Shown: positions 12,801-49,082 of the stretch, in pieces | Layout: every line of letters begins with the position of its first letter | Position numbering within the stretch: position 1 is the first letter of the stretch | DNA from: Mycteria americana | Taxonomy: Eukaryota; Chordata; Aves; Ciconiiformes; Ciconiidae | Assembly: GCF_035582795.1 (NCBI RefSeq) | Contig: NC_134366.1 | Span: 1,314,501 to 1,378,500, forward strand | Reading direction: 5' to 3' | Length of the DNA: 64,000 nt | Translations under genes and position numbers: made by a program | The notes under the pieces: model-generated | The model's input: only the letters and a program-made list of their open reading frames with translations | Database searches by the model: none | Told to the model about the DNA's origin: nothing

Positions 12801-15800
12801 TGCCCCCCGGGGCCGGCGAAGGGCTGCTGGGCAAAGGGGGCCTGGGGGGGCAGCGGGGGCCGGGCGGGCGGCTGGAAGGGCAGGGGGACCTGGGCTCTCC
12901 CCGGGGGCAGAAAGGGAGCCGGGGGGAACTGCTGGGGGCCCTGGGCCCGAACCGGCACCTCCACGCCGGGCTGGAGCTGCGCCGCGGGGGCGAAGGCCTG
13001 GGGGTGCTGCCCGGGAGGGAACGGGCGCCCAGGCGGCTGCCCGAAGGGCTGCAGCCCCCCCTGGGCATAGGGGAAGGGGGCAGGGGGCTCCCCCGGGCGC
13101 TGCGGGGCCAGGAAGGGGCCCGGGGGCACGGCCGGCCCCTGGCCGGGGAGCCGCAGGGGAGCGGCGCAGCTGGAGATGGGGGCCTGGACGCTGTCCACCG
13201 TGGTGGTGGCCGGCCGGGCGCCCGGGGCCGGCTCGGGGCCGCCCGCCGGTGGCTGGGCACCCACGGGGGCTGGCCCCAGGGCGGGGGGGCCGAGCGCGGG
13301 CACCCCGGGCTGGCCCAGGCCGTAGGAGGCGGCGGGAGCGGGAGCAGCGCCGGGCAGGGGGCCGTGCTGCGGGGACGAGCGCGGGGGAAGCGCGTGGGCC
13401 CCCGCGTAGCCGGGCTGCACCGGGCCCCGCAGCAGCGGGGCGGCCGGGAAGAGCTGGGGGGCGGCGGCCGGGGCCGAGCAGGGGGGGGGCCCGGCCGGCT
13501 GCGGGGCGGAGGGCTGCAGGAGCTGCACCGGAGCCCCCCCGCCGGGGGCGAAGGGGCCCGGTGCCGAGGCGGGTGCCGCCGGCAGCCGGTAGTGCCCGGG
13601 GAGGGCTGGGGGGGCCGGGAAGCGGGCCGGGGCGAAGGGCTGCAGCGGGGCGCTGGCCAGCCTGGCCGCGGGCAGGAAGGGCTCGGGGCCGGGGGGCCGC
13701 AGCCCGGCGGCCAGGCCCGGGTTGAGGGCGAGGGTGGCCAGCGCGGGGGGCGGCAAGCGGGCCAGGTGCCCGGCCAGCACGTCGGGCGGCAGGCTGCGCA
13801 GCTCCTCCGGCAGCTCCGACAGCACCAGGGAGCCCAGCGGCGGCAGGCTGCCGGCGTCCGGCGCCCCGGCTTCCAGCTCCGGCGGCTTCTTCTGCAGGGC
13901 GGGTTTGGGGGCCGTGGGCCGAGGGGGCGGCTGCTTCTTCATCTCCCTGCCGGGCGGCAGCGGGGGTCACCCGGGGCTGCCGGGCCCAAGCAAGCCCAGG
14001 CGGGTGCCGCCCACCTCCCCCTGGGGCACGGGGAGCCGCCGCGCCGAAGCCAAACCCTCCAGCCGCAGCCCCGATGACCCAGCAGCACCCAAAGGCGCTT
14101 CCCACCTCCCGGAGGGCGTCACGCCGCGCTGCGGGCAGGGGCTGGGACCCCAGCACCGGCTTTACGCCCCCTCCAGCCCACGCGCGCGTCTCCACGCCGG
14201 GCACGGCCCCACCTACTTCTCCAAGATCTGCTGCCTGTTGGCCTCGGCGGCTTGGCAGGCAGCCCGGGCCTTCTCCAGCAGTTTGGCGGCTTTCCCCTCC
14301 AGGTCGGTGTAGAAGTCCTTCCCCTCCTGCGATTTCTTCATCAGGTCCTCGTAGGCTTCGTAGGAGGCCACCAGGGTCTGAACGGTGGTGTTCCACCTGG
14401 GGAGACGGGGCGGAGGGGCTGAGCAGGGACGTAACGCCAGGCCGAAGCTGGGTGTCCCTGCTCCTGGGACCGGGGGAACCCGACCGGCGCCCACCTGGGA
14501 CGGATGCCGGGTGCAGGACAAACAGCCGGCAGGGGGGCGTGACAAGGGACAGGCTAGAGAAGCCGGCAGCGACCCCACACCTCTCCCTGGGGTGGGAGAG
14601 GGCTGTTCCCATGCACCCAGAGCCCCCCGGGGAACGCCCTTCCCCCTGCCCCGACCCCGGCCAGCCCCGCACACCACTCACTTGTGCTCCACCTCGGCCA
14701 GGGCCTTGCGCACAGCCGCGTATTTGACGTTGGCGTCCGTCAGGGCCTTCAGGACGTTCTCCTGGGCAGCCAGGTTCTGCTCCAGGTAGACCTTGATCTG
14801 GTCGTACTTCTTCAGCTGCTCCTCGAAGAGTTTCTGCCGAGAGAGGGGAGATCTGAGGGGCCGCAGGCGGCCGGGGAGGCTCAGGGGTAGGTTGGGACGG
14901 AGCAGAGCTCTTGCTGCAGCACTGACCGGGACGTGGGGGACACGAAGGGGCTTCCCCAAACACGGCGGCTGGCACCCACCTTCATCTCGGAGCGGTCGGT
15001 GGTGACCAGCGAGGTGGTGATATCGTCCTTCTGGATCATCTCGCGCAGCTGCTGCTCCAGGGACGCGCGCTGGTCCCTCATCTCCTGCACCTTGCCCAGG
15101 ATTCGCTTCAGGTTCTGCAGCACCTGCTTGTCGTCTGGGGGACGGGGAGGGCTGAGCGGCCGTGCAGGACCCCACCGAGCCCCGGCGCAGCCTCCCCGGC
15201 CCGAGCCCGCTCACGGGACGTGCTGCAGCCGAGGGGAGGGAGCCGCGGGGGTAAGCAGCCAGCCTGCGGCTTGTTCCGGCACACCGGCAGTAAAGCCAGG
15301 CATTTGCCGGGGCAGTAACCGGGTCTCTGCCCCCTCTGTCCCCACACCAGGATCCCATTTTGCACGTTTTTCAGGGGGAAAAGCCCCCAGCCCGGCTCGC
15401 AACGGACCACGCAGCCGGCCGATGCCAACGCGGCGCAAGCCCAGGCACCGGGCGAGACGAGGGGAGCCCCGGAGAGGCGGGAGGGGGAAGCAGACCTGGG
15501 GTGCGGCCCCCGGGGTGCAGCGCCGCTCACCTTCGGTCAAGGCGGGCGAGGGCAGCGCGGCCCGGACCTGCTCCAGCGGCCCGCTGAGCAGGCGGAGGTT
15601 GCCGATGTGCAGGTTCATGGCTTTGTGGAGCTCGGTGTTGGTGAAGCTGGCCTTCTCGTGCACCTCCATGTACTTGGAGCACTCCTTGCTGACCTCGGCC
15701 AGCCCCGGGGACGGCGGCGGAGGGGACCCCTGGGACGGCGGGACCTTCCCGAGCAGCTCCTGCAGCTTCCGCTCCTGAGCCTCGTCCTCCTCGAGGAGGT

Positions 15801-18800
15801 CTCGGATCTCCTTCAGAGAAGCCTCCACGTCGGTGAAGACCCCGGAGAGCACTGGAGGGGAGACACGGAGGATGGCAAAGGGCTGAACCACCGCCTGCTC
15901 CAAGCCTGGCATTGACACAGCAGCCTGAAGAATAAATCTGGCTGTGGGCGACCAGAGGCGGCAAGGACATCGCAGCCCGAGCACCTGGGTGCTGGGTTCA
16001 GGGCTTGTTCGCGCTGGGGAGACGCCCGCAACGGGCTCCAGGCAGCACCGACCCCCTTGGCTGCAGCCGCCGGCGGGGCGCCGGCTGGCCCGGCCTGCGA
16101 GGAAGCGGCGTCCCCCACGACCGGCCAACAGGAAAAATGCTTTGGGGGTAAGGAATTTATATCGGAAAAGAATTGGCGATCGGAGCGGCCGTTGCCAAGG
16201 CCAAGGCCCAGCCAGGGAGCAGCGTGCCTGCCCCCAGCGCCAGCCCAGACATCCCCAGTCCCCCCAGTACGTCCCCGTGTCCTTACCCTGCATGGACTGG
16301 ACGAGGTTCTTGACGGTGTCGGGGCGCACGCTGAGCGCGGCGCATTTCTCCATCAGGATGGGGGGGATGTGGCTGTACATGTCCAGGTTGTCCACGGTCT
16401 CGGGGTCCAGCTGCATGGAGTCCATGAACTGGCTACAGGCGAGAGAGCGAGCCCCTGAGCGGTGGCAGAGCCCCCCCAGCGAGCCAAGGGGAAGGGCTCC
16501 CCCCCATCCCAAACCGCGGCCAGCTCGGGGCGCAGCACTGCGGCATCGCCCCCGATGGCCCGAGCAAAGCTGCGGGGTGAATTTGGGGACCGGTCACTGG
16601 GACCGGAACCCACTGGGGGACGGGGTCTGCCCCAGAGCTGGGCAAACTGGGACTTGACCGTGCTCAGCGCGAGAGCAACAGGGAGCAGGGACGTCTGCGT
16701 TGCTGCCGGCACCGGGGTGGGATACGCAGCGAGGGGATGATGGGGGCACCCCTGTGCCAGGCCGCAGGGAGCCCCAGCTGCTGCCTGGGTCTCCAGCGGG
16801 GAGGAATTGGCCAGGGCCCCGTGCAGGTACGGCTCACACGTACTCCAGCACTTCGTTCTTGGCTTCGATCTTTGCCATCACGTCTCTCAGCAGTTTGGCT
16901 TTCTCCTCGCTACGACAGAGAAAAAAGAAAAAAAAAAAAAATCCTTTAGTGCTGCGACAGCAGTAGGAAAACCTCCGCTGAAAATCACAGGTGCTCCAAG
17001 ACCTGTGGGAATCGGCCGGAGCCTCATCCGTCCCCCGGCCTGCTGCCTGGGGCGCTTCGGGGCAGCAAGGACAGGAGCCAGAGACGAGGACGACTCGGGG
17101 ACGTTGGTGGCTCCCCAAGGAAGCCACCGCAGCCGTTTTGGTCCCCTCCAGCTCCCTTCAGCCTGCGGAGAGGCTGAGCTGGGGCACGGGCTCCTTGTCG
17201 AGCTCGGTGCTGGAGGTCTGTGCCCCCAGCGCCGTGACCGCTGCGGCAGGCGGCCGGCTGGGCTGTCCTGCTCCGGCAGAGCCGTGCCCGCCCGCGCCGC
17301 AGCCCGGGACGCACCTGTACAGGGAAGAGGCCTCGTGGGCAGCCATGGGCACCAGCTTGGCAAATATATCGGGGCCGGTGACAGCTGGATCCGTGGGGTT
17401 GACGGGGAGGGCCTTCACCAACGGGGCACCTGGGGGTGGAAGACACAACGCACGCCTGAAACCTCTACAGGGAACTGATTATTCCCAAGATGGGTCCTCC
17501 CACTCAACAGCTTCAATTCCTGGAGGATCCCGGGAGAGCAAAGCACCACGGCACGAAGCCCCGCTGGCCCCAAGAGTGCCAGAGCCCCACGGACCCACCG
17601 CGTGTCACTGTGTGTGTGTGTGTGTCCCTCTCCCACGAGGAGCTGGCAGGAGAGGGCACTGCCCGTCCTCACCTTTCACAGACTGCAGGGTGTCCAGCGC
17701 AGGCACAGCTTCGTGGTAGATGAAGTCATTGTCCTTTTTGGCCGAATTGTACCTAGAAACAAGAAGCGGTGACGCGTTGGCGAGGAGCAGGCAGCACCCC
17801 CGGCTCCCTGAGCTTGCTCCCGGGGGGGGTCAGGCCCTGGGTCTCTTGGGCTCGCTCCAGGGAGAGCAAAGAGCAACTTCCACGGCAGCCGCACGTCCCG
17901 AGAGCCTCAGGCAGCACGGGGTGCTTGGCGTGGCGTGTCGGGGGGCACCGGGGACACTCCCTGGGCTGCTCTGGCCACCAGGCATTTCTGACCCACAGAG
18001 AAGCAGGACAGTCACGTCCAGGGTTGCCCCGTGCACGGACTCACTTGCCACCGATCACATCCATGGTGAATCTCAGGGCTTCCTGGACGGTTTCTGGCTG
18101 GCCCTGCAGAAATGAGAGCGAGTTAGCACAGACAGGGAACGGGTATCACTGCCACAGCGGGCAACCGCAGCCCTGAGTGCTGTGGCCGCAGCCCGAGCGT
18201 GCCCGGGAGCCAGCAGCAGCCTCGCCAGCCATCTCTCCTTGTGCCCCATAAAGGAACGGAGATGCCTGCAGGCAGCCCCGAATCCTCCCTGTCCCCGTTT
18301 CACACGCGGACCCTGCCACGGGGCTGTCCTCGGCTTCCCGAGCCCCGCAGCACCGACACCAGGGGCTCCGTGGGGAGCCCGCCAACGCGGCAGGGCTGCG
18401 TGCTGCAGACCCACGGCCCTTCTGGCGCTGCCCACGTGCTCCTGAAGGATTAAAATCAAACCGATGCCCCCTAAAGCCCTGGTAGACCAAGTGGCCGGGA
18501 GATACCAGAGCCTTGGGCTTGGCTGGACGTCCCAGAGGGAAGCGAAGTGCTGCTTTGGGAAGCCAGCACAGGTTTGCCAACCCAGTCGACGGCAAAGAAA
18601 GCTTTTAAACTGACACCACCGGTTCTCATCTTCTCAGTCTGGCATCCCAGTGGATTGAGCCACTGCTCAGCACAGAAACTTTTAAAAAAAAAAATTACTG
18701 CTACCAGATGGAGCAGGGACAAACCTTTGCCAGCTTGATAGCTTCGTTGAGTTTATCCAGAGCGCTCTGGAAGTAGATGACCTGCAGAGAGACGGGGAAT

Positions 18801-32330: not shown

Positions 32331-35300
32331 TCATCTCCCGGGCCAGTAAAGCACGAAGCCGTCGCGGCTCTTGCCGAAATCGGGGGCGGCCGCGTTCGGC
32401 CGCGTCTCCACCGTCAGCAGCCGCCGGCGCCCGTGGAGGCTCATCTGGATGCAGTCGGAGACCCGGACCCGCAGCTCCCGCTTGGTCCTACAAGATCCCG
32501 GCATCGGCGGGGGGGCTCGCGGGGTGCCGGGACTCCCCCCGACCCCGAGCCCCCCGACTCACGCTCGGCAGTGCTCCAGGAGGACGCCCACCAGCTCGCC
32601 CACCCGGTTGTCCCCCGCCGGCTGCGTCTTGTGCAGGCACACGGCCAGGTCCTCCTGGTTCTGGGTGTGGAAGACCACCAGCTGCGCCCGGCAGCTTGTC
32701 ACGCTCAGCCCCGTCACCTGCGGGGACGTCCGGGTGTCACCGCTGTGGCCATGGCCGTGTGAGGGGCTGGAGGGCACGGCATGGCCAGCGGGGCACGGCC
32801 AAGGCACTATGGCCAACGTACCACGGCCAGCGTGGTGGGGACAGCACGGTGTGACCAGCGTGGTGGCGACAGCACAGCACGGCCAGCGTGGTGGGGACAG
32901 CATGGCAGGGACAGCACGGCAGGGACAGCGTGGTGGGGACAGCACAGCGCGGCCAGAGTGGTGGGGACAGCGTGGTGGGGACAGCGTGGTGGGGACAGCA
33001 CAGTGGGGACAGCACAGCACGGCCAGCGTGGTGGGGACAGCATGATGGGGACAGCACGGCATGGCCAGCGTGGCGGGGACAGTGTGGTGGGGACAGCACG
33101 GCACGGCCAGAGTGGTGGGGACAGCACAGCGGGGACAGCGTGGTGGGGACAGTGTGATGGGGACAGCACAGCACAGCCAGGGTGGTGGGGCCAGCGTGGT
33201 GGGGCCAGCGTGGCGAGGACAGCATCACACCTCTGTCCCAGGGGACTTCACCGTGCCAACGCGGGTGGCCCCCGTGCGCGGCTGTGGGGACCACGGAGGG
33301 GTCTCCAACCTCCGGGTGGGAGCAGGGCAGCCAGGACACCTGGGTCCCCCCGATCCCGGCTCGCCAGGACAGGTGGTTCCCCCCCCCCCCCGCCGACCCT
33401 GGGGACACCGGTGGGGCTGGGGACACTCACGGTGCTGAGGGGCAGCGCCCGCATCACCCGGTACTGCTTGCGGGGGTCCAGCTTGTAGAGGTGCTGGTCC
33501 GTCACGAGGATGGCCCGGTCCCGGCTCTTACCGAAGCGATTGATCTGCGGGGCCGGGGCCAGGTGAGGGGACGCGCCGGGGTGGGGGGGGGGTGACACAG
33601 ACGCGGTGGCCGGGCAGGATCCCCCCCTCCCCCTGTCACCTTGCGGACGTAGCCGGAGAAGAGGACGGAGCCGAAGTGCACCTTGTCCTTGAGGGTCTGG
33701 AGGCGGCGGGCGAAGGGCAGCGCCAGCCCCGGGTTCTCGCTGGGCTGCGGGGAGCCGCGGCGTGGGGCGGGGGGTGGCACCCCGGCGCGGGGCGGGGGCG
33801 GCACCCCGGGGTGCGCCACGGGGCACCCCCAAACCCGCCGCCAGCTCTTACCGAGGAGAGGTAATCCCGCGCCCAGCTGCGCTGGCAGCCCCAGTCCTTC
33901 CGCAGCCCCTCCAGCGCCTCCATGGCGGCCACCTTGGCCCGGATCTGCCCCATCTCCGAGGGGGGGATGTTCTTGACGATCTGCCGCGCTCGCCACCTGC
34001 GGCGGGGGGACACGGCGCCGTCACGTCACCGTCCCGCGTCCACATCCCACGTCCCCGTCCCACGTCGCCATCCCACATCCGCGTCCCCGTCCCGCATCCC
34101 CATCCCACGTCCCCATCCCACGTCCCCGTCTCGCGTCCCTGCCTGCGTCCCTGTCCCCATCCCACATCCCCGTCCCACGTTCCCAACCCACGTTCCCATT
34201 CCACGTCCCCATCCCCATCCCGTGTTCCTGTTCCACATCCCCTTCCCACATCCCCATCCCTGTCCCACGTCCTCATCCCACGTCCCTGTCCCACATTCCA
34301 GTCCCGCATCCACGTCCCACGTCCACATCCCAATCCCATGTCCCCATCCCGCGTCCCTGTCCCCATCCCACGTCCCCATCCTGCGTCCCTGTCCCCATCC
34401 CACATCCCCATCCTGCGTCCCCATCCCGCGTCCCTGTCCCCATCCCGCGTCCCCATTCCGCGTCCCTGTCCCCATCCCACGTTCCTGTTCCGCGTTCCCA
34501 TCCCACGTCCCCATCCCTGTCCCGCGTCCCCGTCCCAACGCGGGAGCGCAGCGGGATCCGGGACGGTACCTGCGGAAGAGGCGCTGGCTGGCGTCCTGGA
34601 AGCGCGCCAGCACCGCCGGCGGCTCCGGCCAAACCACGCTCTTGCCAAAATCGGGGAGGGTGCGGACGGCCTGGAAGCGGCGCAGCAGCTCCCGCAGGTA
34701 CGCCTTCACCTTGTGCCGTTTGTAGTAAGCCATGATGGTGTAGGCGGCACGCAGGTAACGGCAACGCCGCCGCGCCAGGGCGCCGCGCCAGGCCTGCCGA
34801 ACGCCGACGGTCAGGGCGGGCGCTGCCCCGTGGACCCCCCCCCCCCCCCCCCAGGAGCGTGGCTGTGGCACCGGGCTGGGCGCCCGGCACCGCACCCCGG
34901 CACCGGGAGGCCCCCAAAATGCTGCTCCCCCCCAGAAAAACTCCCCGGTGCGGCCCATGCCCTGCTCCAAAGCGATGTACGGTGCTGCGCCCTGCGCCAG
35001 CGCTGCACCCTGCCCCATAGCCTGCCCCACAGCCTGCCCCATGCCGTGCTGAGCGCCATGCTGCGCCGTGTTCTCTGCCCCGTGCCCTATGCCCTGCCCC
35101 ACAGCACGCCCCACGCCATGCTTTGCCCATGCCAAGCCCGTGCTCCGCACCGTCCCGTGCCCCACACCCTGCCCCACACCTCGCCCAGCGCCGGGCACAG
35201 AGCAGCCTGCTGCCCCCCTCCAAGCCCGCCAGCGCCAGCGGCCCCCCGTGCAGGCAGAGCCCTGGCTGCCCGCTCGCCCCGCCGGCACCGCGATTACCCA

Positions 35301-38300
35301 CCCGGCACCGCGGGCACCGGGGCGTCCCCCCAACCCCGCGTCAGCCCGGCGGAGCCGAGACCAAGCCGGCTCGCGCCGCGCGTGCCCACCTTCTGCAGCA
35401 GCAGGACGATGATGGGGATGAGCTGCGCCCGCTCCTGCTCGAGGCAGAAGAGGGTGCGGGGCGTGCGGATGAAGACCTTGGTGTGGCCATAAGCCACGTC
35501 GTCCTGGAAGCCGTGCTGCTCCAGGAGGGCTTGCGTGGCCTCCCGGTCGCTGGCCATCAGGTGGTTGGGCCACGTGTACTCGCAGGTCATCTTGTACCTG
35601 GGGGGCAGAGCGGGGTGAGGGGGCACGGGGTGGGGACGGGGGTCCCGGGGGGGCGCGGGCCGTACCGCAGGAGGAAGCGGTGGTAGGGCTGGCGGTAGGC
35701 GAAGCCGGCGCGGCGCACGCGGACGTTCTCCAGCAACCCCAGGTAGGAGACCTGGTGGCGGCAGCGCTCCTCGTCAAAGAGCGTCGGCGACTTCTGGTCG
35801 TTGGGTTTGATGCAGCGCACGTAGTAGGGCTCCTGCGGGGACACGGACGGGGTGGCACCACGGTAGCAGCCGCGAGCGGCACCGAGCCCACGGGTGTCCT
35901 GGGCTGGGGGGCTGCGGGCACGCAAGGTGGGACTGCAGCAGGCGTGGGTGGCATGGGGACAGGAGGCCTCAGTGGCTTGGGGACACGCTTGGCTAGCACT
36001 GGGACATCTTGGCTGGCTTGGGGACACGACAGGTTGGCTCAAGGACATCTTGGCTGGCTGGGGACATGCCAGGATGGCATGGGGACATGCTCAGCTGGCT
36101 TGGGGACATACCAAGATGGGCTGGGGACATGCCAGCTGCCATGGGGACATACCAAGATGGGTTGGGGATGTGCCCAGCTGCCATGGGGACATACCAAGAT
36201 GGGTTGGGGACATGCCAGCTGCCATGGGGACATACCAAGATGGGTTGGGGACGTGCCCGGCTGGCATAGGGACATGTCAAGTTGGTGCACAGACACGCCA
36301 GGCTGGTGCAGGGACGTGCCAGGCTGGCACGGGGACGAGCCCGGCTGTCCCCAGTCCCCTACCTTGGAGGCGAGGTTCTCCACCAGGGCCACGATGGAGT
36401 TCTTGAAGAGCGTGCCAGCGGTCAGCGGGCGCTTGGTGACCTCGGTGATGCTCTGCTCGCCGTCGGGCCACATGGCACGCAGCACGGGGTCCGTGCTGGG
36501 GACGGCATTGGCGTGGGGCCTGGCAGCACCGGGAACCCCTCTCCCGCCCCACGGCTGTGCCACCAGCCCCCCAACTGCGTCCCCTGTGTCCCCAACCTGT
36601 TGTAGAGGAGCCGTTTGAAGTCCTGGAAGAGCGTGTCCTTGTTCTTGTCCAGGAAACCCTCCACCGAGTACCTGAGGGAGGGGGACACCACGTTGGGGGG
36701 CTCCTCCAGCCACCCTGGGGTGTCGGGGGGAGCTTCACCCTGTGGGACCAAGGCATCTGGGCAGCTCTTCCTCCCCGTGGTGGGCCAGAGTGGGCCAGTC
36801 CCATGCAGAGGTGACGTGTGGCCCTGGGGGTGGCCCTGGGGGCACCCATGGAGGCCAGGGGACTGTGGGGTTCAGTGCTCATGGACAGTGAATTCCCCGA
36901 CCCTGTCCCCACTGTCCCCAGGGTATGGCATGGCATGTCCTACACAGCCCGTCCTGCTGCACGTGGCCTCTGGGGACCTCCCAGACCCCATGGACCCCAC
37001 TGGTCCCCCATGGTCCTAAATGGCTCCACACAATCCCCCATGGGTCTTCAAAGCCCCTTGGCCAACCAAGGCCACCCCATAGTCCCCCAGGGGCCCCTAC
37101 GGCTCTCCATGGTCCCAAGTGTCTCCCCCAGTGTCCCCCATGACCTCCCAAGGTCCCTCATGGCCCCCCACAGTTCTCTGTGGCCCCACCACAACCCCAT
37201 GGACACTCATGATGTCCATAGTCCCTGATGGCCACCCACACTGCCGTGGCCCCAACTGACCCCCCGCCAGTCCCCCATGGTTCCTCACGATCCCCACAGC
37301 CTGATGGTCCCCCATGACCCCAAACCACCTCCCTCAGGCCCTCAAATCCCCTCCATGCTCCCACATGGTCCCCCACGGTTCTCCAAGACCCCATGGTCAA
37401 CCACAGACCCCCAAGAGTCCCTATAGCCCCATGGTCCCAAGTGGCCTCCCATGGTCCCCCATGCCGTCCCAAGGTCCCTCATTGACCCAAGGCCATCTGT
37501 GGTCCCCCATGGTCTTCCATGGCCCCCTGTGACCCCATGGCCACTCATGATGTCCATAGTCCCTGATGGCCACCCACACTGCCACGGCCCCAAATGACAC
37601 CCCCTCAAATCCCCCACGGTCCACCATGATCCCCACAGCCCGATGGTCCCCCATGACCCCAAACCCCCTCCCACAGTCCCTCAAACCCGCTCCATGCTCC
37701 CATGTGGCCCCCATGGTTCTTCAAGGTCCCATGGTCAACCACAGCCCCCCTATAGCCCCACGGTCCTAAGTGGCCCCCCATGACCCCCTTGGACTCCCAA
37801 GGTTCCTCATAGTCCCAAGGCCCACCATGGTCCCCTGTGGTTCTCCATGGCCCCCCCACGACCCCACAGCCACTCATGATGTCCGTAGTCCCCAACAGTC
37901 ATCCACACTCCCACGGCCCCAGCTGACAACCTCCAGTGCCCCACAGTTCCCATGATCTCTGCAGCCTGATGGTCCCCCATGACTCCAAACCACGTCCCAC
38001 AGGCCCTCAAGACCCCCACAGTCCCATGTACCCCTCCACGTTCCCACACGGTCCTCCATGATTCTCCAAGGCCTCATGGTCAACCATAGACCCCCAAGAG
38101 CCCCTATAGCATCACAGTCCCATGAGGTTCCCCATGGTCCTCCACGCCCTCCCAAAGTCGTCCATGGTTCCCCAGAGCCCCATGGCCACCCAACAACACC
38201 CATAGCCCACCATGGCCCCCCCACATCCCCCCCAACGCCCCCCTCACGTGACATCTCCAGCATAGTGCTTGATGCGGAAGTCCCGGTTGAACTCCATGGT

Positions 38301-41300
38301 CTTGTCTGTGGGGCAGAGCTGGAGAGCGGGGAGGCGTCAGCCCCCTGCCCGTGGACCCCCCCCCGCTCCCCCCCGACCCCCCCAGAAGCACCTTGCGGCT
38401 GGTGTAGTGGGGGTGGCGGCCGAGGCGGGCGTCCATGGAGGCGAGGAAGAGGGAGTCGGTGACGGTCCCCACGGCCAGGCAGGCCTCGTCCAGCAGCGCC
38501 AGGATGCCGCGGTGCGGCTGTTCCACCAGCTCCACGATGGGCTCGTTGCTGAAGTACTCGATCTGGGGGGGCAGAGGGGTGGGCACCCCAAATTGCCCCC
38601 CTGGGTGCCCTGATTCGCCCCCATGCACCCCAAATCTGGCCCTGCCAGGCGATGTCCCCCCATATCTTCCCCCTCAGGTCCCCCCAAGCCGCTCACCCTC
38701 CGCCAGGTGATGCCCCCCCCTGTGTCCCCCTGTCCCCCAGGCTCTGCCAAGTGATGCCCCCGTGCCCCGCCATGTCCCCCCGAGCCCCCTCATGCTCTAC
38801 AAAGCGATGTCCCCATGTCCCCCCCGTGACACCCATGTCCCCTCATGTCTCCCGTGTCACCCCTGTCCCCTCACGCTCTGCCAGGTGACACCCCCCCCAT
38901 GTCCCCATGCCCCTCACGCTCTGCCAGGCGATGCCCCCCATGTGTCCCCATGCCCCCCATGTCCTCCCATGCCACCCCATGTCCCTCACGCTCTGCCAGG
39001 TGATGCCCCCCATGTCCCCCCACGTCCCCATGTCCCTCACGCTCTGCCAGGCGATGCCCCCCGTCCCCCCCCACGTCCCCATGTCCCTCACGCTCTGCCA
39101 GGCGATGCCCCCCGTGTCCCCCCACGTCCCCATGTCCCTCACGCTCTGCCAGGCGATGCCCCCCGTGTCCCCCCACGTCCCCATGTCCCTCACGCTCTGC
39201 CAGGCGATGCCCCCCGTGTCCCCCCCCGTCCCCATGTCCCTCACGCTCTGCCAGGTGATGCCCCCCATGTGTCCCCACGTCCCCATGTCCCTCACGCTCT
39301 GCCAGGCGATGCCCCCCGTGTCCCCCCACGTCCCCATGTCCCTCACGCTCTGCCAGGTGATGTCCCCCGTGTCCCCCCACGTCCCCATGTCCCTCACGCT
39401 CTGCCAGGTGATGCCCCCCGTGTCCCCCCACGTCCCCATGTCCCTCACGCTCTGCCAGGCGATGCCCCCCGTGTCCCCCCACGTCCCCATGTCCCTCACG
39501 CTCTGCCAGGCGATGCCCCCCGTGTCCCCCCACGTCCCCATGTCCCTCACGCTCTGCCAGGCGATGCCCCCCGTGTCCCCCCACGTCCCCATGTCCCTCA
39601 CGCTCTGCCAGGCGATGTCCCCCGTGTCCCCCCACGTCCCCATGTCCCTCACGCTCTGCCAGGCGATGTCCCCCGTGTCCCCCCACGTCCCCATGTCCCT
39701 CACGCTCTGCCAGGTGATGCCCCCCGTGTCCCCCCACGTCCCCATGTCCCTCACGCTCTGCCAGGCGATGCCCCCCGTGTCCCCCCCCGTCCCCATGTCC
39801 CTCACGCTCTGCCAGGTGATGCCCCCCATGTGTCCCCACGTCCCCATGTCCCTCACGCTCTGCCAGGCGATGCCCCCCGTGTCCCCCCACGTCCCCATGT
39901 CCCTCACGCTCTGCCAGGTGATGTCCCCCGTGTCCCCCCACGTCCCCATGTCCCTCACGCTCTGCCAGGCGATGCCCCCCGTGTCCCCCCACGTCCCCAT
40001 GTCCCTCACGCTCTGCCAGGCGATGCCCCCCGTGTCCCCCCACGTCCCCATGTCCCTCACGCTCTGCCAGGCGATGCCCCCCGTGTCCCCCCACGTCCCC
40101 ATGTCCCTCACGCTCTGCCAGGCGATGCCCCCCGTGTCCCCCCACGTCCCCATGTCCCTCACGCTCTGCCAGGCGATGCCCCCCGTGTCCCCCCACGTCC
40201 CCATGTCCCTCACGCTCTGCCAGGCGATGTCCCCCGTGTCCCCCCACGTCCCCATGTCCCTCACGCTCTGCCAGGCGATGTCCCCCGTGTCCCCCCACGT
40301 CCCCATGTCCCTCACGCTCTGCCAGGTGATGCCCCCCGTGTCCCCCCACGTCCCCATGTCCCTCACGCTCTGCCAGGCGATGCCCCCCGTGTCCCCCCAC
40401 GTCCCCATGTCCCTCACGCTCTGCCAGGTGATGCCCTCCCGCTGGTACTCGGCCTGCTCCTGCCGCAGGATCAGCTCGATGAAGAGCTGCTGCAGCTTCT
40501 CGTTGCAGTAGTTGATGCAGAACTGCTCGAAGCTGCGGGCACAGGGTCAGGACGGCCACCGCCACCCAGTCCCGCGCCACGTCCCCTGCGCACCCTGTCC
40601 TGCCGTGTGGCCCCCTGAGCCACGTGGCCCTGCTGGGGACCTCCTGGTCCTGTCCCTCCTGGTCCTGTCCCTCCATGGGTCCCCTGTGGTCCTATCCCTG
40701 CTGGGTCCCATCCCCACCACATGTCCCTCCTGGGTCCTGTCCCCTCCACGTGTCCCTCCTGGGTCCTGTCCCCTCCACACGTCCCTTGGACATTCTCCCT
40801 CCCAAGCCCTGTCCCCTCCACGTGTCCCTCCTGGGTCCCATCCCCTCCGTGTCCCTCCTGGGTCCCGTCACCTCCCTGTGTCCCTCCCAGGTCCTGTCCC
40901 CTCCATGTGTCCCTCCCGAGTGTCCCCCCTGTCCCCTCCACACATCCTTCCCATCCCTAATCCCCCCACCACGTCCCTCCCAGGTCCTGTCCCTCCACGT
41001 GTCCCCACATCCGTCCCCCCCGACCAGGCCAGGTCACCTGTTGGTGTCGAAGATCTCGAAGCCGTAGATGTCGAGGACGCCGATGACGGTGCTCTTGCCG
41101 TGCAGGCGGGCGTCGTAGCCGCGGGCGGTGATGACGGTGTTGATGCGCCCCACGATCCAGCAGAAGAGCCGCTCGTAGATGGCCTGGGGACAGGGACAGC
41201 GTGGTGGGCACCCAAGGGTGCCGGGGGGGGACACACCCGTCACCCCATCTCCCCTCCCTACCTTGGCACAGGCGTCCCGGGCGTAGGCGGCCTCCTTGGG

Positions 41301-44300
41301 GCTGTGGCCCTTCTCGATCAGCTCCCCGCCACCGGCCGCCACGGTGCGGGTCAGGAGTGCCCGGCGCAGGCTGTCGGGCGCCGTGGCCGTCAGCTCGGCC
41401 AGCGCCGCGAGCTGTGCCGCGTCCTCCACCGCCGCCGTCTCGCCCTCCGCCACGAACCTGACGTTGCCCTGGGGCGGCCCCGCCGCGCCACGTTGGTGGA
41501 TGAATGCGGGGGGACACCCGGGAGCCCCCCGGAGAGGGGCTGGGGCATCCCAGCACTGGCCCCTCCCGCACCACAGGCCGGGCTGGGCCGTACAGGGCTG
41601 TACTGGTTTGTATTGGGCTGGGCTGGGCTGTACTAGTTTGTATTGGGCTGTGCTGGGCCGTACAGGGCTGTACTGGTTTGTATTGGGCTGTGCTGGGCTG
41701 TACTAGTTTGTATTGGGCTGGGCTGGGCCATACAGGGCTGTACTGGTTTGTATTGGGCTGTGCTGGGCCATACAGGGCTGTACCAGTTTGTATTGGGCTG
41801 GGCTGGGCCATACAGGGCTGTACCGGTTTGTATTGGGCTGTGCTGGGCCGTACAGGGCTGTACTGGTTTGTATTGGGCTGTGCTGGGCTGTACTGGTTTG
41901 TATTGGGCTGGGCTGGGCCATACAGGGCTGTACTGGTTTGTATTGGGCTGGGCTGGGCCATACAGGGCTGTACTGGTTTGTATTGGGCTGTGCTGGGCCA
42001 TACAGGGCTGTACCGGTTTGTATTGGGCTGTGCTGGGCCGTACAGGGCTGTACTGGTTTGTATTGGGCTGTGCTGGGCTGTACTGGTTTGTATTGGGCTG
42101 TGCTGGGCCGTACAGGGCTGTACTGGTTTGTACCGGGCTGTGCTGGGCTGTACTAGTTTGTATTGGGCTGTGCTGGGCCGTACAGGGCTGTACTGGTTTG
42201 TATTGGGCTGTGCTGGGCCATATAGGGCTGTACCGGTTTGTATTGGGCTGTGCTGGGCCGTACAGGGCTGTACTGGTTTGTATTGGGCTGTGCTGGGCTG
42301 TACTGGTTTGTATTGGGCTGGGCTGGGCCATACAGGGCTGTACTGGTTTGTATTGGGCTGTGCTGGGCCGTACAGGGCTGTACTGGTTTGTATTGGGCTG
42401 TGCTGGGCTGTACTAGTTTGTATTGGGCTGGGCTGGGCCATACAGGGCTGTACTGGTTTGTATTGGGCTGTGCTGGGCCGTACAGGGCTGTACTGGTTTG
42501 TATTGGGCTGTGCTGGGCCGTACAGGGCTGTACTGGTTTGTATTGGGCTGTGCTGGGCTGTACTGGTTTGTATTGGGCTGGGCTGGGCCGTACAGGGCTG
42601 TACTGGTTTGTATTGGGCTGTGCTGGGCTGTAGTGGTTTGTATTGGGCTGGGCTGGGCCATACAGGGCTGTACCGGTTTGTATTGGGCTGTGCTGGGCCG
42701 TACAGGGCTGTACTGGTTTGTATTGGGCTGTGCTGGGCTGTACTGGTTTGTATTGGGCTGGGCTGGGCCATACAGGGCTGTACTAGTTTGTATTGGGCTG
42801 GGCTGGGCCGTACAGGGCTGTACTGGTTTGTATTGGGCTGTGCTGGGCCATACAGGGCTGTACCGGTTTGTATTGGGCTGTGCTGGGCCGTACAGGGCTG
42901 TACTGGTTTGTATTGGGCTGTGCTGGGCTGTACAGGGCTGTACTGGTTTGTATTGGGCTGGGCTGGGCCATATAGGGCTGTACCGGTTTGTATTGGGCTG
43001 TGCTGGGCCGTACAGGGCTGTACTGGTTTGTATTGGGCTGTGCTGGGCTGTACTGGTTTGTATTGGGCTGGGCTGGGCCATACAGGGCTGTACTAGTTTG
43101 TATTGGGCTGGGCTGGGCCGTACAGGGCTGTACTGGTTTGTATTGGGCTGTGCTGGGCTGTACTGGTTTGTATTGGGCTGGGCTGGGCCATACAGGGCTG
43201 TACCGGTTTGTATTGGGCTGTGCTGGGCCGTACAGGGCTGTACTGGTTTGTATTGGGCTGGGCTGGGCCGTACAGGGCTGTACTGGTTTGTACCGGGCTG
43301 GGCTGGGCTGTACAGGGCTGTACTGGTTTGTATTGGGCTGGGCTGGGCCATACAGGGCTGTACTGGTTTGTACAGGGCTGTGCTAGGTTGCATTAGGCTA
43401 TACTGGTTTGTATTGGGTTGTACTGGGCTGTTCTAGGCTGTGCTGCTTTGCATTGGGCCATACTGGTTTGCATTGGGCCATACTGGTTTGCACTGGGCCA
43501 TGCTGGTTATGCTGGTTTGTGTTGGGCTGTACTGGTTTGCACTGAGCTGCACTAGTTTCTGTGGGACTGCACTGGTTTGAACTGGGCTTTACTTGTTTGT
43601 ACTGGTCTGCACTGGGTAGCATGGGGCCACTCTTATTTGCATGGGGCTGTACTGGTTTGCCCAGGGCCATACTGGTCTGCCTGGGGCCGCACTGGTGCAC
43701 AGCGGCCTTACTGGTGGTGGTGGGGGGGGCCACAGTGGTGTGTGGTAGGGGCATACTGGTCTGCCTGGGGCTGTACTGGTGTTACTGGCAGGGATCATAC
43801 TGGTGTTGGGGGGCCATACTGGTGCATGGGGACCCTACTGGTCTGCCTGGGGCTGTACTGGTGTGCAGAGACAATAGTGATATGGGGGGGCCATACTGGT
43901 TTGCCCAGGACCATACTGGTGTGCAGAGGCCATACTGGTGTAGGGGGGCCCATACTGGTCTGCCTGGGGCCATACTGGTGTGAGGGGGCTGTACTGGTGG
44001 TGGTGGGGGCCATACTGGTGTGGGGGGCTGCACTGGTCTGCCTGGGGCTATACTGGTGCTCAGGGGCCATACTGGTGTGGAGACAGCTGTACTAGTGGTG
44101 GGCGGAGGGTACTGGTGTGAGGGGACTGTACTGGTGGGGGGAGGCTGTACTGGTTTGCCCAGAACCATACTGGTGAGGGAAGAGCATACTGGTCTGCCTA
44201 GGGCCATACTGGTGTGTGGGGCCGTACTGGCGTGTGGGGCCGTACTGGCGTGTGGGGGGCTGTACTGGTGCATGGGGGGGCCATACTGGTGCGTGGGGGG

Positions 44301-47300
44301 GGCTGTACTGGAGCATGGGGGGGGCTGTACTGGTGTGTAGGGGGGCCCATACTGGTGCGTAGGGGGGGCCATACTGGTGCGCGGGGGCCCACACTGGTGC
44401 GTGGGGGGGCCCATACTGGTGCGTGGGGGGGCCATACTGGCACGTAGGGGCCCATACTGGCGCATAGGGGGCCATACTGGTGTGTAGGGGGGGCCCATAC
44501 TGGTGCGTAGGGGGGCCATACTGGCGCGTAGGGGCCCATACTGGTGTGCGGGAGCCCATACTGGCGCATAGGGGGCCATACTGGCGCATAGGGGGGCCCA
44601 TACTGGCGCGTAGGGGGCTATACTGGTGTGTAGGGGCCCATACTGGCGCGTAGGGGCCCATACTGGTGCGCGGGGGGCCATACTGGTGCGCGGGGGCCGC
44701 GGGGCGGGGCTCTCACCAGGTGCAGGATGGCGGCCAGGATGCGGCGCACGGAGCCCGTCTCCCCCGGGGAGAAGCCGATGACGGCCATGGCCTCCTCCAC
44801 CGCCCGGTACCCGGCGGCGTCGTCCCCGCAGGCCTGGGGCGGGGGGGGGGGGGGGGATGGGCGTGAGGGGCCGGGACCCCCCCGCCCCCCACCCCTCCCC
44901 CCCCCCCCATCCCCCCCCACTCACGCTGCCCTGGGTGCCCTCCCGGGTGTAGCGGTAGGCGCCGGGGTCCCGGCAGAGGCGCAGGGAGGCCAGCAGCGCC
45001 GCCGGGGCTCCCAGCAGCAGCTGCGGGGCAGGGGGGCAGCACCGGGGGGGGGGGGGGGGGTACCCCCGGCCCCCCTGGTGCCGTTCGGGTCCCCCCGCCC
45101 TGGCCCGGCCCAGCCCTGTGCCCTCCATCGCCATCCCGGCCGCCCCACCCCACCCCCCAGATCCCATCCGCCCCATAGATGTCACCCCACGGGTGAGATT
45201 CCCCACACGTAGATCCCATCCATCCCACCCCACGGGTCCCGTCCCATCCCCCCCATCCATCCCCACCCCATCCTTCTCATCCCGTCCATCCCATCCCCAC
45301 CCCACAGATCCCACCCCACAGATCCCATCCCTCCCATCCCCATCCCACCCCACAGATCCCATCCTACCCCACAGATCCCATCTGTTCCATCCCAACCTTC
45401 TCACCCCACCCATCCCATCCCCATCTCACCCATCCCATCCCAACCTTCTCACCCCATCCCCATCTCACCCCATAGATCCCATCCATCCCACCCCACAGAT
45501 CCTACCCCACAGATCCCATCCATCCCACCCCACAGATCCCATCCATCCCACCCCACAGATCCTACCCCATAGATCCCATCCATCCCACCCCACAGATCGT
45601 ACCCCATAGATCCCATCCATCCCACCCCATAGATCCTACCCCACAGATCCCATCCATCCCACCCCACAGATCCTACCCCATAGATCCCATCCATCCCACC
45701 CCACAGATCCTACCCCACAGACCCCATCCATCCCACCCCACAGATCCTACCCCACAGACCCCATCCATCCCACCCCACAGATCCTACCCCACAGATCCCA
45801 TCCATCCCACCCCACAGATCCTACCCCATAGATCCCATCCATCCCACCCCACAGATCCTACCCCACAGATCCCATCCATCCCACCCCACAGATTGTACCC
45901 CATAGATCCCATCCATCCCACCCCACAGATCCTACCCCACAGATCCCATCCACCCCACCCCACAGATCCTACCCCACAGATCCCATCCACCCCACCCCAC
46001 AGATCCTACCCCACAGATCCCATCCATCCCACCCCATCCCCTGGCTCACCTGGTAGAAGGCGTGGAAGTTCCTCTCTCCCGGCTGCTGCTGGAGGACTCG
46101 GGACTGGGAGAGGGAGCAGGGGCTGGGTGCCAGGCGGTGCCCCCGTGGGACCAGCGCCCACCCGGCCGCGCCCACCCGCGGCACCACCCGCGGCACCACC
46201 CGCACCTTCTCCAGGAGGTAGTTGTGGATGTGGCCGCCGGTGGGGTCACCCTTGAAGTCGAAGTTGATGTCCATGTACTTGCCGAAGCGGCTGGAGTTGT
46301 CGTTGCGGTTGGTCTTGGCGTTGCCGAAGGCCTCCAGGACGCAGTTGGACTTCAGCAGCACGTTCTTCACCCTGGGTGGTGTGGCACGGCACGGTACGGC
46401 ACGGCACGGCACGGTACGGCATGGCACGGCACGGCACGGCACAACCCGGCACAGCACCGGCACGCACAGAATGGCGCTGTGTCCATCACTGGTGGACACA
46501 GGACACGGCACCCCTGGGCCCCCCACACCACCCGTATGGCCATGGGGCACCCCAGGGACCCCCACACCATCCCTATGAATGTGGGGCACCCCAGGGCCTC
46601 CTCAAAGGCATGGGGTACCCCTGGTCCCCCCACACCACCCCACAGGTGTGGGGCACCCCAGGACCCACAGGACCACCCCACAGGCCCATGGGACACCCCT
46701 GGTCCCCCCACACCAACCCTACGGACATGGGGCACCCCTCGTCGCCCCACACCAACCCTATGGACGTGGGGCACCCCAGGACCTCCTCAAAGGTATGGGG
46801 CAGCCCTTGTCCCCCCACACCACCCCACAGGTGTGGGGCACCCCAGGACCCACAGGACCACCCCACAGGCCCACGGGACACCCCTGGTCCCCCCACACCA
46901 ACCCTACGGACATGGGGCACCCCTCGTCGCCCCACAGCAACACTATGGGCATGGGACACCCTGGTTCCCCCACACCACCCCACAGGTATGGGGCACCCCA
47001 GGACCCTCCAGGACCACCCCACAGGCATGGGGCACCCCTGGTCACCCCACACCAACCCTATGGGCATGGGGCACCCCTGGTTGCCCCACACCTTCTCTAT
47101 GGGTATGGGGCCTCCCAGGACCACCCCACAGGCATGGGGCACCCCTGGTTGCTCCACACCATCCCTCCGGCCATGGGGCACACCAGGGCCCCCCAGAACC
47201 ACCCCACAGGCATGGGGCACCCCAGTTGTCCCACACCTTCTCTATGGGTATGGGGCCTCCCAGGACCACCCCACAGGTGTGGGGCACCCCTCGTCCCCCC

Positions 47301-49082
47301 ACACCATCCCTATGGACATAGGGCACCCTAGGGCCTCCCAGGACCACCCCATAGGTGTGGGGCACCCCTGCTCCCCCCCCACCGTGTGTCTCCCCCCCGC
47401 CCCAGCCCTGGGCTGGCAGGTCCACGGGGTCCCTGCCCCAGCACCCATCCCTCCCGCCGCGCCGTGGGGCCGGACCCACCTCTCCACCTCGGCGCGCTGG
47501 GTGGGGTTGGTGATGGCGGCGATGTACTGCATGATGTACTTGCTGGCCTCCGTCTTCCCCGCCCCGCTCTCGCCTGGCAGGGAGGGCAGGGGTTGGGCGA
47601 GGGGCGCCCACCCAAGGGCGTCCCCCACCCACGCGCCCCCCCCAAACCGCCGCCGAGTCCCTACCCGAGATGACGATGCAGGTGTCCTTGGCGCGGCGCT
47701 TCATGGCCTTGTAGGCGGCATCGGCCAGGGCGAAGAGGTGGGGCGGGCGCTCGTAGAGCTCGCGGCCGCGGTAGCGCTCCACCGCCGACGGGCCGTACAG
47801 CGCCAGCGCCTGGTAGGGGTTCACCGCCACCACCACCTCCCCGATGTAGGTGTAGATGCGGCCCTGCGAGAACCTGCGCACAGGGGCGGCCGTGGGGCAG
47901 GCTGTGGGGCTGGGGGGGCACCCTGCGGGGTGCTGCGGGGCAGGAGGCATACCCTGCAGGGTGCTGTGCCGTGGGGTGGAGTGACACCCCGCAGGGTGCT
48001 GTGCTGTGGGGAGGGATGGCATCCTGAAAGGTGCAGCGCCGTGGGGCAGGCTGGTGCTGTACCGTGGGGCGGGGTGGCACCCTGCAGGGTGCTGAGCTAC
48101 GGGGCAGGATACACACCCTGTGGGGTGGGACGTTGCTGTGGGGCAGGGTGGCACCCTGTGCCATGGGGCGAGGTGGCACCCCAAAATGTGCAGTGCCGTG
48201 GGGGCAGGATGGTGCTGTACTGTGGGGCGGGGTGGCACCCTGCAGGGTGCTGAGCTATGGGGCAGGATGCGCACTCTGTGGGGTGCTGTGCCATGGGGTA
48301 GGGTGACACCCTGCAGGGTGCTGAGCTATGGGGCGGGATGCCATCCTGTAGGGCGCTGTGCTGTGTGGCGAGGTGGCATCCTGTGGGGTGCTGTGGGGCA
48401 GGGTGGCATCCAGGGTGGCATCCGTGGGGCCTGGGCAGGGCGCTGTGGGGCAGGGCTGGGAGCACCACGGGGCTTAGGTGCCCCAGTACAGGGCCGAGCA
48501 CCACGCTATGGGGCACCGCCGCTGCCATGGGGCTGGGCGGTGCCGTGGGGCAGCGGGAAAGCGGCTCTTCCTGTAGGCAGCACCTGCAGGCGCGGGAGCA
48601 GGCAGGAAACGCGGGGGCCCCGTGGGTCGGCGTCCCCCCCTCATGCGCACATGGGCGCACGCCAGCCCCCCAACCCGCTCCGGCGGGGGCGGCCGTGCCT
48701 CAGTTTCCCCCCACGGGCAGCGGGGCACCGCCCAGACGCTTCCTGCGGAGCCGGGGTTTGGCGCCGGGCGCTTCCGCAGCCCCCGCGGGACTCGGGGTAC
48801 CCGGCGTCCCCCATCACCGCCACGCCAGGGCCCAGGTCCCGGCTGCCGCCAGCGCCGTGCCGTCGGGGTCTCGCGGCGCGGCGCCCGCACCGCCCCGGGA
48901 ACCGCCAGCGCCCGGCTCAGCCCCGGGGGTGCTGGGGCGGCACCTCGGGGCGTCCCCGGCCTCGCTCCCCCCGCGTCCCCCTCGTACCGCAGGCGCAGGT
49001 TCTCCAGGAACTGCTCCATGGTCACTTCGTCCAGGAGGACGAAGTCGGCTTTGCCAAATTCGGGACCCTCCAGCTCCGCCAT
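32331..49082 (-). CDS. MYO1G: Unconventional myosin-Ig, complete
   Basis: MYO1G is a leukocyte class I myosin that links cortical actin to the plasma membrane. Exons 5' to 3': 49082-48988, 47873-47665, 47573-47480, 46371-46206, 46103-46050, 45020-44925, 44833-44717, 41468-41262, 41183-41038, 40532-40418, 38562-38392, 38318-38248, 36671-36597, 36495-36363, 35832-35666, 35597-35390, 34793-34570, 33996-33852, 33744-33640, 33544-33431, 32717-32563, 32487-32331. They sum to 1,007 residues; phase closes at all 21 junctions; human is 1,018. Start [20 protein letters not shown], end VLYWPGR. Motor domain: P-loop GESGAGKT about residue 102, switch I NDNSSRFG about 156, switch II DIYGFE about 384. The neck about 709-770 has an IQ-type stretch ([15 protein letters not shown]); the rest is the basic TH1 tail ([20 protein letters not shown]). 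The closest alternative is MYO1D; VTYSVEG, NIPPSEM and the CCM2 neighbour favour MYO1G. The motor motifs are intact. Confidence 0.96.
32820..33231. repeat. Minisatellite in MYO1G intron 20
   Basis: A ~10-bp theme GTGGGGACAGC alternating with ACGGCCAGC / ACAGCACAGC words, about 40 copies, G-rich on the plus strand. It lies wholly within intron 32718-33430. Confidence 0.9.
34025..34545. repeat. Minisatellite in MYO1G intron 17
   Basis: About 520 bp of the words CCCATCCCACGTCC, CCCGCGTCCCTGTCC and CCCCATCC with a period of about 6/12 bp. C-rich on the plus strand, in intron 33997-34569. Confidence 0.9.
34840..35330. repeat. Degenerate GC-rich words in MYO1G intron 16
   Basis: Intron 34794-35389 begins with a run of 18 C, then shows loosely repeated GCCCCATGCCCTG / GCCCCACACC words. 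This is a weak, decayed tandem array; no gene or RNA is seen. Confidence 0.55.
35985..36350. repeat. ~41-bp minisatellite in MYO1G intron 14
   Basis: The phrase GGGACATACCAAGATGGG recurs at 36103, 36144, 36186 and 36227, each followed by GGGGACATGCC and AGCTGCCATG. Diverged copies flank these. Period 41-42 bp, about 8 copies, in intron 35833-36362. Confidence 0.9.
37000..38235. repeat. Degenerate minisatellite in MYO1G intron 12
   Basis: Short words such as CCCCATGGTCCC and CTCCATGGCCCC tile most of intron 36672-38247. On top lies a longer period: CACTCATGATGTCC plus GTCCCTGATGGCCACCC recurs near 37205, 37545 and 37875 (steps of about 330-340 bp), so larger blocks were duplicated too. Confidence 0.85.
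38690..40435 (-). repeat. 51-bp minisatellite made from the exon 10/intron 10 junction of MYO1G
   Basis: About 28 regular 51-bp units (about 38985-40435) plus degenerate ones to 38690. On the MYO1G strand each unit contains TGGCAGAGC|GTGAGGGAC, the true exon 10 donor, preceded by a copy of the exon end GGCATC(A/G)CC and followed by intron-type GGGGACGTGGGGGGACACGG. About 18 bases per unit are exon-derived and 33 intron-derived. The true exon 10 ends at 40418, at the array's edge. Because 51 is a multiple of 3, the exon frame stays open across the whole array, repeating [17 protein letters not shown]. Variant units recur in the same order 561 bp apart. Confidence 0.95.
40640..41010. repeat. 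~30-bp minisatellite in MYO1G intron 9
   Basis: Repeated GTGTCCCTCCTGGGTCC plus TGTCCCCTCCAC words, about 10-12 degenerate copies, filling most of intron 40533-41037. Confidence 0.85.
41575..43450. repeat. 40-bp (10-bp based) minisatellite in MYO1G intron 7
   Basis: About 1.85 kb of very similar units built from four 10-bp words: GGGCTGTGCT, GGGCCGTACA, GGGCTGTACT, GGTTTGTATT. Full units are 40 bp; 30-bp units that lack one word are mixed in regularly. About 45-50 units, with few point differences (CCATA/CCGTA, CTAGT/CTGGT). Homogeneity suggests recent amplification. Frames are open across it in several phases but match no protein. Confidence 0.95.
43451..44700. repeat. CATACTGGTG minisatellite in MYO1G intron 7
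   Basis: It continues directly from the 40-bp array: GGGGCCATACTGGTGTG and GGGGCCCATACTGGCGC words of about 18-25 bp, increasingly regular toward 44700. The shared CATACTGGT/GTACTGGT word suggests both arrays grew from one seed. The array abuts exon 7 (donor at 44717). Confidence 0.92.
45125..46045. repeat. ~37-bp minisatellite in MYO1G intron 5
   Basis: CCCACAGATCCCATCCATCC and CACAGATCCTACCCCA words alternate with a period of about 37 bp, some 20 copies plus a decayed part on the left. It fills intron 45021-46049 and reaches within 5-10 bp of the exon 5 donor. Confidence 0.93.
46380..46455. repeat. (CACGG)n simple repeat
   Basis: About 14 copies of a pentamer GGCAC/GGTAC immediately next to the exon 4 acceptor (46371) in MYO1G intron 3. 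Confidence 0.9.
46560..47370. repeat. ~60-bp minisatellite in MYO1G intron 3
   Basis: Units combine GGGGCACCCCAGGACC, ACCACCCCACAGGCATG and GGTCCCCCCACACCA words. Pairs such as 46620-46760 and 46800-46945 are almost identical over ~140 bp, so block duplication is recent. About 14 units. Confidence 0.92.
47885..48430. repeat. ~50-bp minisatellite in MYO1G intron 1
   Basis: GGTGGCACCCTGCAGGGTGC followed by TGAGCTATGGGGC or TGTGCCGTGGGG, about 11 degenerate copies. On the MYO1G strand each unit carries CACCCTGCAGGG, a sequence with acceptor-like CTGCAG. The array starts just beyond the exon 2 acceptor (47873). Confidence 0.9.
48431..48987. other. Rest of MYO1G intron 1
   Basis: GC-rich unique sequence between the array and exon 1. 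No gene, RNA or further repeat is recognised. Confidence 0.6.

Follow-up and report, generated by a model that had tools for sequence, protein, structure and literature searches.

A MYO1G-type gene and the donor of intron 10

The window, meaning the whole stretch of 64,000 nucleotides that was analyzed, carries a complete myosin coding region on its minus strand at 32331-49082. This region comprises 22 exons with 1,007 codons and a stop, and its product matches both Myosin_head (E 3.1e-235) and Myosin_TH1 (E 7.6e-35). Exon ends were picked to give GT-AG borders at all 21 introns and to keep the reading frame. The intact frame and the two domains fit a class I myosin of MYO1G type. The putative name MYO1G fits as well; it rests on peptides of human MYO1G, which carries the same EGITWQS motif.

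Exon 10 (40418-40532, minus strand, 115 nt) ends EGITWQS, and exon 11 (38392-38562, minus strand) starts IEYFSN. The intron 10 donor, AGC|GTGAGG (40412-40420, minus strand), places the last exon base at 40418 and the first intron base at 40417; on the minus strand the exon end reads TGGCAGAGC and the intron then begins GTGAGGGAC. The coding sequence is intact with 40418 as the sole exon 10 donor. When 40418 is joined to 38562, the product reads EGITWQSIEYFSN, and the junction is ungapped in each of four alignments with solved myosins I. These are the four aligned of 151 sequences that matched at up to E 0.001; two are entries for myosin-Ic and two for the myosin IE heavy chain, in effect two distinct proteins. 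Genes of this genome that we read as class II myosins show a one-residue gap three residues beyond the exon 10-11 junction. The initial annotation had located any residues added by splicing slippage just after the relay-helix region. Their position stands, two residues after a tryptophan common to the solved myosins I, this part of the motor being the relay region.

The best non-self match in the same genome is a distinct gene on C22 that reads as MYO1D. An intron of 715 nt in this gene matches intron 10 in both position and phase (EGIPWKH|IDYFNN, with CAT|GTGAGT as its donor). A copy of its exon edge was not found in this intron, nor was a tandem repeat found in the 1.8-kb locus, where GC content is 43%. 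Given this same-site intron and the ungapped exon 10-11 join, sequence comparison indicates that the ancestral donor is very probably the one at 40418, and its earlier designation as the true donor is upheld. Two other class I genes (L015 and L013) do not have this intron site; as judged from match ends only, their break falls just after EGI, before the tryptophan. Separately, nine same-strand myosin head exon matches on contig C16 of G000 (504689-917331) look like a tandem myosin heavy chain cluster.

Tandem copies of the exon 10/intron 10 junction

The junction TGGCAGAGC|GTG occurs exactly 31 times on the minus strand between 40418 and 38875, once as the true junction and 30 times as a copy. 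The 51-bp unit consists of the last 18-19 bases of exon 10 and 32-33 intron bases that include the donor. By blastn-short, the copied exon edge is 19 nt long at 100% and scores 38.2 bits, compared to a best score of 20.3 bits in eight intron shuffles. The copied positions are 97-115 of the 115 in exon 10, that is, through the final exon base. The proposal that the minisatellite unit is the exon 10/intron 10 junction itself is therefore correct. The copied piece lies within one intron, intron 10.

The first 28 intervals between junctions are exactly 51 bp (units at 38990-40417, minus strand), and each of these units ends in the exon 10 edge copy followed by the donor. Two irregular units follow at 38875-38989 (minus strand) and end in donors 30 and 31; the 29th interval is 72 bp and the 30th is 43 bp, and the 43-bp unit breaks the frame. 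Of the roughly 28-30 units of 51 bp described in the initial annotation, 28 have exactly this length, and the rest are irregular or decayed. Tandem Repeats Finder (TRF) places the array at 38950-40441 with a period of 51, 29.2 copies, 96% matches and 0% indels. Tandem repeats reach into exon 10 over 24 nt.

Past donor 31, about four decayed junction copies can be read from the sequence, extending to about 38638 (38638-38874, minus strand). Their copied exon ends lie near 38794, 38741, 38697 and 38638, and the GT is lost in three. The array is thus decayed at its distal edge and homogeneous in the part nearer the exon. The 28 regular units fall into eight types, the commonest of which accounts for 13, and the variant sites occupy unit positions 19-40. 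The order of the types reveals a higher-order duplication at 39194-40366 (minus strand), in which units 2-13 (CBBAAAAADAEF) are followed by units 14-24 (CBBAAACDAEF). An internal block duplication of this sort is what unequal exchange or comparable turnover leaves behind. The array is real as observed. Because the variants fall at unit positions 19-40, invariance around the donor was considered as a mark of selection, but this reading was dropped, as the variants represent few independent events.

Reading frame across the array

Joins between exons 10 and 11 are in frame and free of stops from 30 of the 31 donors, and each 51-bp step adds 17 residues. The earlier statement that slips would add multiples of 17 residues, 51 being divisible by three, agrees with this count. 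Such joins require no more than a unit length divisible by three and a single unit that contains no stop.

From 40540 to a stop at 38843, the frame of exon 10 spans 565 open codons. Counted from the GTG at 40417, the open reading frame to 38843 is 524 codons, matching the more than 520 codons given previously. The other frames over this stretch are about as open: another frame on the minus strand runs for 556 codons without a stop, and on the plus strand two frames do so for 540 and 610 codons. The long open frame is thus unremarkable by itself, and it was rejected as a sign of coding. A conserved unit peptide was also rejected as a candidate, because six of the seven distinct codon changes between units alter the residue, seven being too few for a test. 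From the sequence, there appears to be no sign of a selected or kept unit peptide.

Donor strength and choice of the 5' splice site

The initial annotation counted about 30 near-identical donors and inferred that the spliceosome must pick the first. When all donors were scored, the 31 proved identical over the nine scored bases and so have equal scores. The array donor has a weight-matrix score of 0.48, which ranks third from lowest among the 21 donors of the gene, and a U1 pairing energy of -5.9 kcal/mol, the sixth weakest of the 21; both scores are rough. The top-scoring donor-like site of intron 10 is AGG|GTGAGC (38691-38699, minus strand), a mutated array copy whose exon side ends at 38697. 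This site scores 4.74 with U1 pairing of -9.0 kcal/mol, is out of frame and is preceded by a stop. Donor strength cannot explain a choice of 40418, since that donor is weak, its 31 copies are equal and the site at 38697 is stronger.

Three of the gene's 21 donors (32563, 44925 and 40418) have the form AGC|GTGAG, in which the exon closes with a C, and the exon also ends in C at the donors of introns 12 and 20. C is rare as the last exon base of a donor.

Exon length and the placement of G-runs change along the array. Use of the first donor gives an exon of 115 nt, the second to fourth give 166, 217 and 268 nt, and later donors give exons longer than 300 nt. There are two G-runs in exon 10 (115 nt) compared to four per array unit. 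All array donors have G-runs downstream, but an exon body with hardly any of them belongs to the first donor alone. G-runs are described as enhancers when downstream of a donor and as silencers when in the exon (PMC12062376), and the downstream enhancer side is shown (PMC10334793). Equal donor strength leaves position, exon length and flanking G-runs as the features that may decide the 5' splice site. Thirty identical in-frame donors, together with a clean paralogue carrying an intron at the same site, amount to a natural experiment on 5' splice site choice.

Repeat content of the gene and the window

Tandem repeats with a period of 10 or more make up 71% of the gene's intron bases, compared to 6% in the rest of the window. 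Within the gene they occupy 9,797 of 13,728 intron nt and 113 of 3,024 exon nt. The two 4-kb bins with the highest GC content (73-75%, at 8-16 kb) hold only two short arrays, so GC content alone does not explain the gene's repeats. A search for other exon-edge arrays in the gene returned an edge copy of at least 14 nt in only one of 42 exon-intron pairs (eight shuffles per pair). The intron 12 pair beat its shuffles with a 10-nt match, located away from the exon edge. Intron 7 contains a 40-bp minisatellite of about 50 copies (window 41576-43458), but the search returned no copy of an exon edge reaching 14 nt in that intron. Elsewhere in the window, minus-strand open reading frames at 9881-16512 contain a piece of an ALIX V-domain and pieces of a protein tyrosine phosphatase; we take these to be a PTPN23-like gene.

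Origin and predicted consequences of the array

The array is probably a local minisatellite that arose from the MYO1G exon 10/intron 10 junction by the process known as exon stuttering, is non-adaptive, and leaves 40418 as the donor that is mostly used. A 51-bp segment containing the exon edge and G-rich intron with its donor would have been duplicated in tandem. The resulting array may then have been expanded and homogenized by unequal exchange, slippage or conversion, and would have no selected function. The anatomy of the array and its internal block duplication, both directly observed, speak for this origin. As counterpoints, strength alone would not favor 40418 (0.48 compared to 4.74 at 38697), and an edge array is present in just one of the 42 exon-intron pairs.

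Most mRNA would be spliced from 40418 and encode a normal motor. This donor probably wins by giving the shortest exon (115 nt), and it would also be favored by G-runs that lie mainly downstream of the weak donor, where they are helpful. For later donors, G-runs fall within the exon extension and, to judge from the published behavior of hnRNP H/F, would tend to silence. Some leak to donors 2-4 is expected, which would add 17, 34 or 51 residues, and leak to 38697 would yield a premature stop. Array length probably varies between individuals. Most likely, a non-adaptive array is tolerated here because the first donor dominates. A neutral burden, which the initial annotation offered as its alternative, is the better fit and is in line with published avian exon stuttering.

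It is a good deal less probable, though worth weighing, that the array generates isoforms in the manner of IFI6. The first several donors would then be used substantially, producing a ladder of MYO1G proteins with 0, 17, 34 or more added residues, and array length would tune the mix. Such a role is suggested by the 30 of 31 donors that are in frame and stop-free, by the modest lengths of the first four exons (115-268 nt), and by the first donor having no edge in strength, the 31 being identical over the scored bases; moreover, two downstream repeat units are used as donors in IFI6, giving three mRNAs (PMC4526556). However, the insertion site is ungapped in the four solved myosin I alignments, and the one-residue class II gap three residues on implies that the neighborhood tolerates little. 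The codon changes between units mostly alter the residue (six of seven), and an in-frame length with an open frame is cheap, as other frames are open too. The isoform-generating role put forward in the initial annotation thus found no support, either for isoforms being made or for their mattering, and the unit peptide shows no sign of being kept.

A more elaborate version, in which the array serves a leukocyte myosin as a splicing rheostat of variable length, is doubtful. Array length would set the amount of slippage to later donors, which would place 17-residue blocks near the relay loop, or to the premature stop by way of 38697, and MYO1G dose or motor properties could differ between birds as a result.

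An assembly artefact, in the sense of a real array assembled with the wrong number of copies or a false block duplication, seems improbable. The units are nearly identical, including a block duplication of 11-12 units, and 2,500 of the contig's first 6,000 bases are Ns, which stand for either a gap or sequence that was withheld, but the window has no Ns, and the unit variants are ordered and end in a decayed distal edge. In addition, one chicken intron set of this kind (PHF8) was verified by raw nanopore reads (PMC12954441).

That the array is itself exon, with the frame to 38843 translated as a long coding extension, can be dismissed almost entirely, for despite its 524 stop-free codons the frame ends in a stop, the best intron donor (38697) lies past that stop and out of frame, and the join across the array yields an ordinary motor.

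Comparison with known systems

Repeats that supply splice signals at exon borders occur in several other settings. Turri et al. in 1995 reportedly described a minisatellite with multiple splice donor sites in human IFI6 (6-16). The unit of that minisatellite is 12 nt. Like it, the present array is a minisatellite whose units bring splice donors to an exon border. It differs in gene and species, and while use of downstream donors is documented for IFI6 (PMC4526556), the donors here are known from sequence only. Repeats in human segmental-duplication genes are likewise variable, lie at exon-intron borders, alter gene structure and may give alternative transcripts; in contrast to this locus, they are internal repeats of recently duplicated genes, and the authors read them as novel intron formation (PMC2812944).

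The "mirages" of amphioxus are likewise close in kind: exon-intron borders duplicated in tandem in the manner of a minisatellite, variable in length and in many cases carrying splice signals (PMC3087553). They show concerted evolution with diverged edges, and RT-PCR suggests that regular splicing is undisturbed. Their Adh3 units of 10-72 bp bracket the 51 bp observed here. Unlike the units here, those of the amphioxus globin genes are larger (150-160 bp) and few, with six and three in two BflGb6 haplotypes, and the genes are those of an invertebrate.

The exon stuttering to which we assign the array was described for chicken dot chromosomes by Hron et al. (2026). As given in the main text (PMC12954441), the edge of an exon, along with the splice donor or acceptor there, is copied in tandem into the adjacent intron, in 1-44 copies with copied exon parts of 20-187 bp, and length varied between individuals in 183 of 192 introns. 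The intron 10 array shares with these cases a donor-bearing exon edge copied in the adjacent intron, an intact exon and a copy number within 1-44, as well as a GC-rich gene with repeat-filled introns and a clean paralogue elsewhere in the genome. In the same account, 190 of 236 stuttering introns are on dot chromosomes and 36 of 236 on macrochromosomes; the present gene is not on a dot chromosome, a location that is typical but not required, and instead lies at 1.31-1.38 Mb of C2, a contig of 175,112,271 bases. Its units are also unusually regular and in frame compared to the published cases. MYO1G is not named in the main text of that paper, the gene list of which sits in the supplement, and no such array is evident in the titles or abstract openings of 10 of the 25 openly licensed PMC papers matched for MYO1G and chicken.

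The copied exon part here, 18-19 nt and 38.2 bits, is under both limits of the published screen, which were at least 20 nt and 42.1 bits and mark detection, not definition (PMC12954441, main text). That screen would therefore pass over this array, which suggests that screens demanding at least 20 copied exon bases undercount exon stuttering. By these comparisons, the array is a genuine if unusually regular case of a known kind, and it extends avian exon stuttering, so far reported mostly from dot chromosomes, to a gene located close to one end of a 175-Mb contig.
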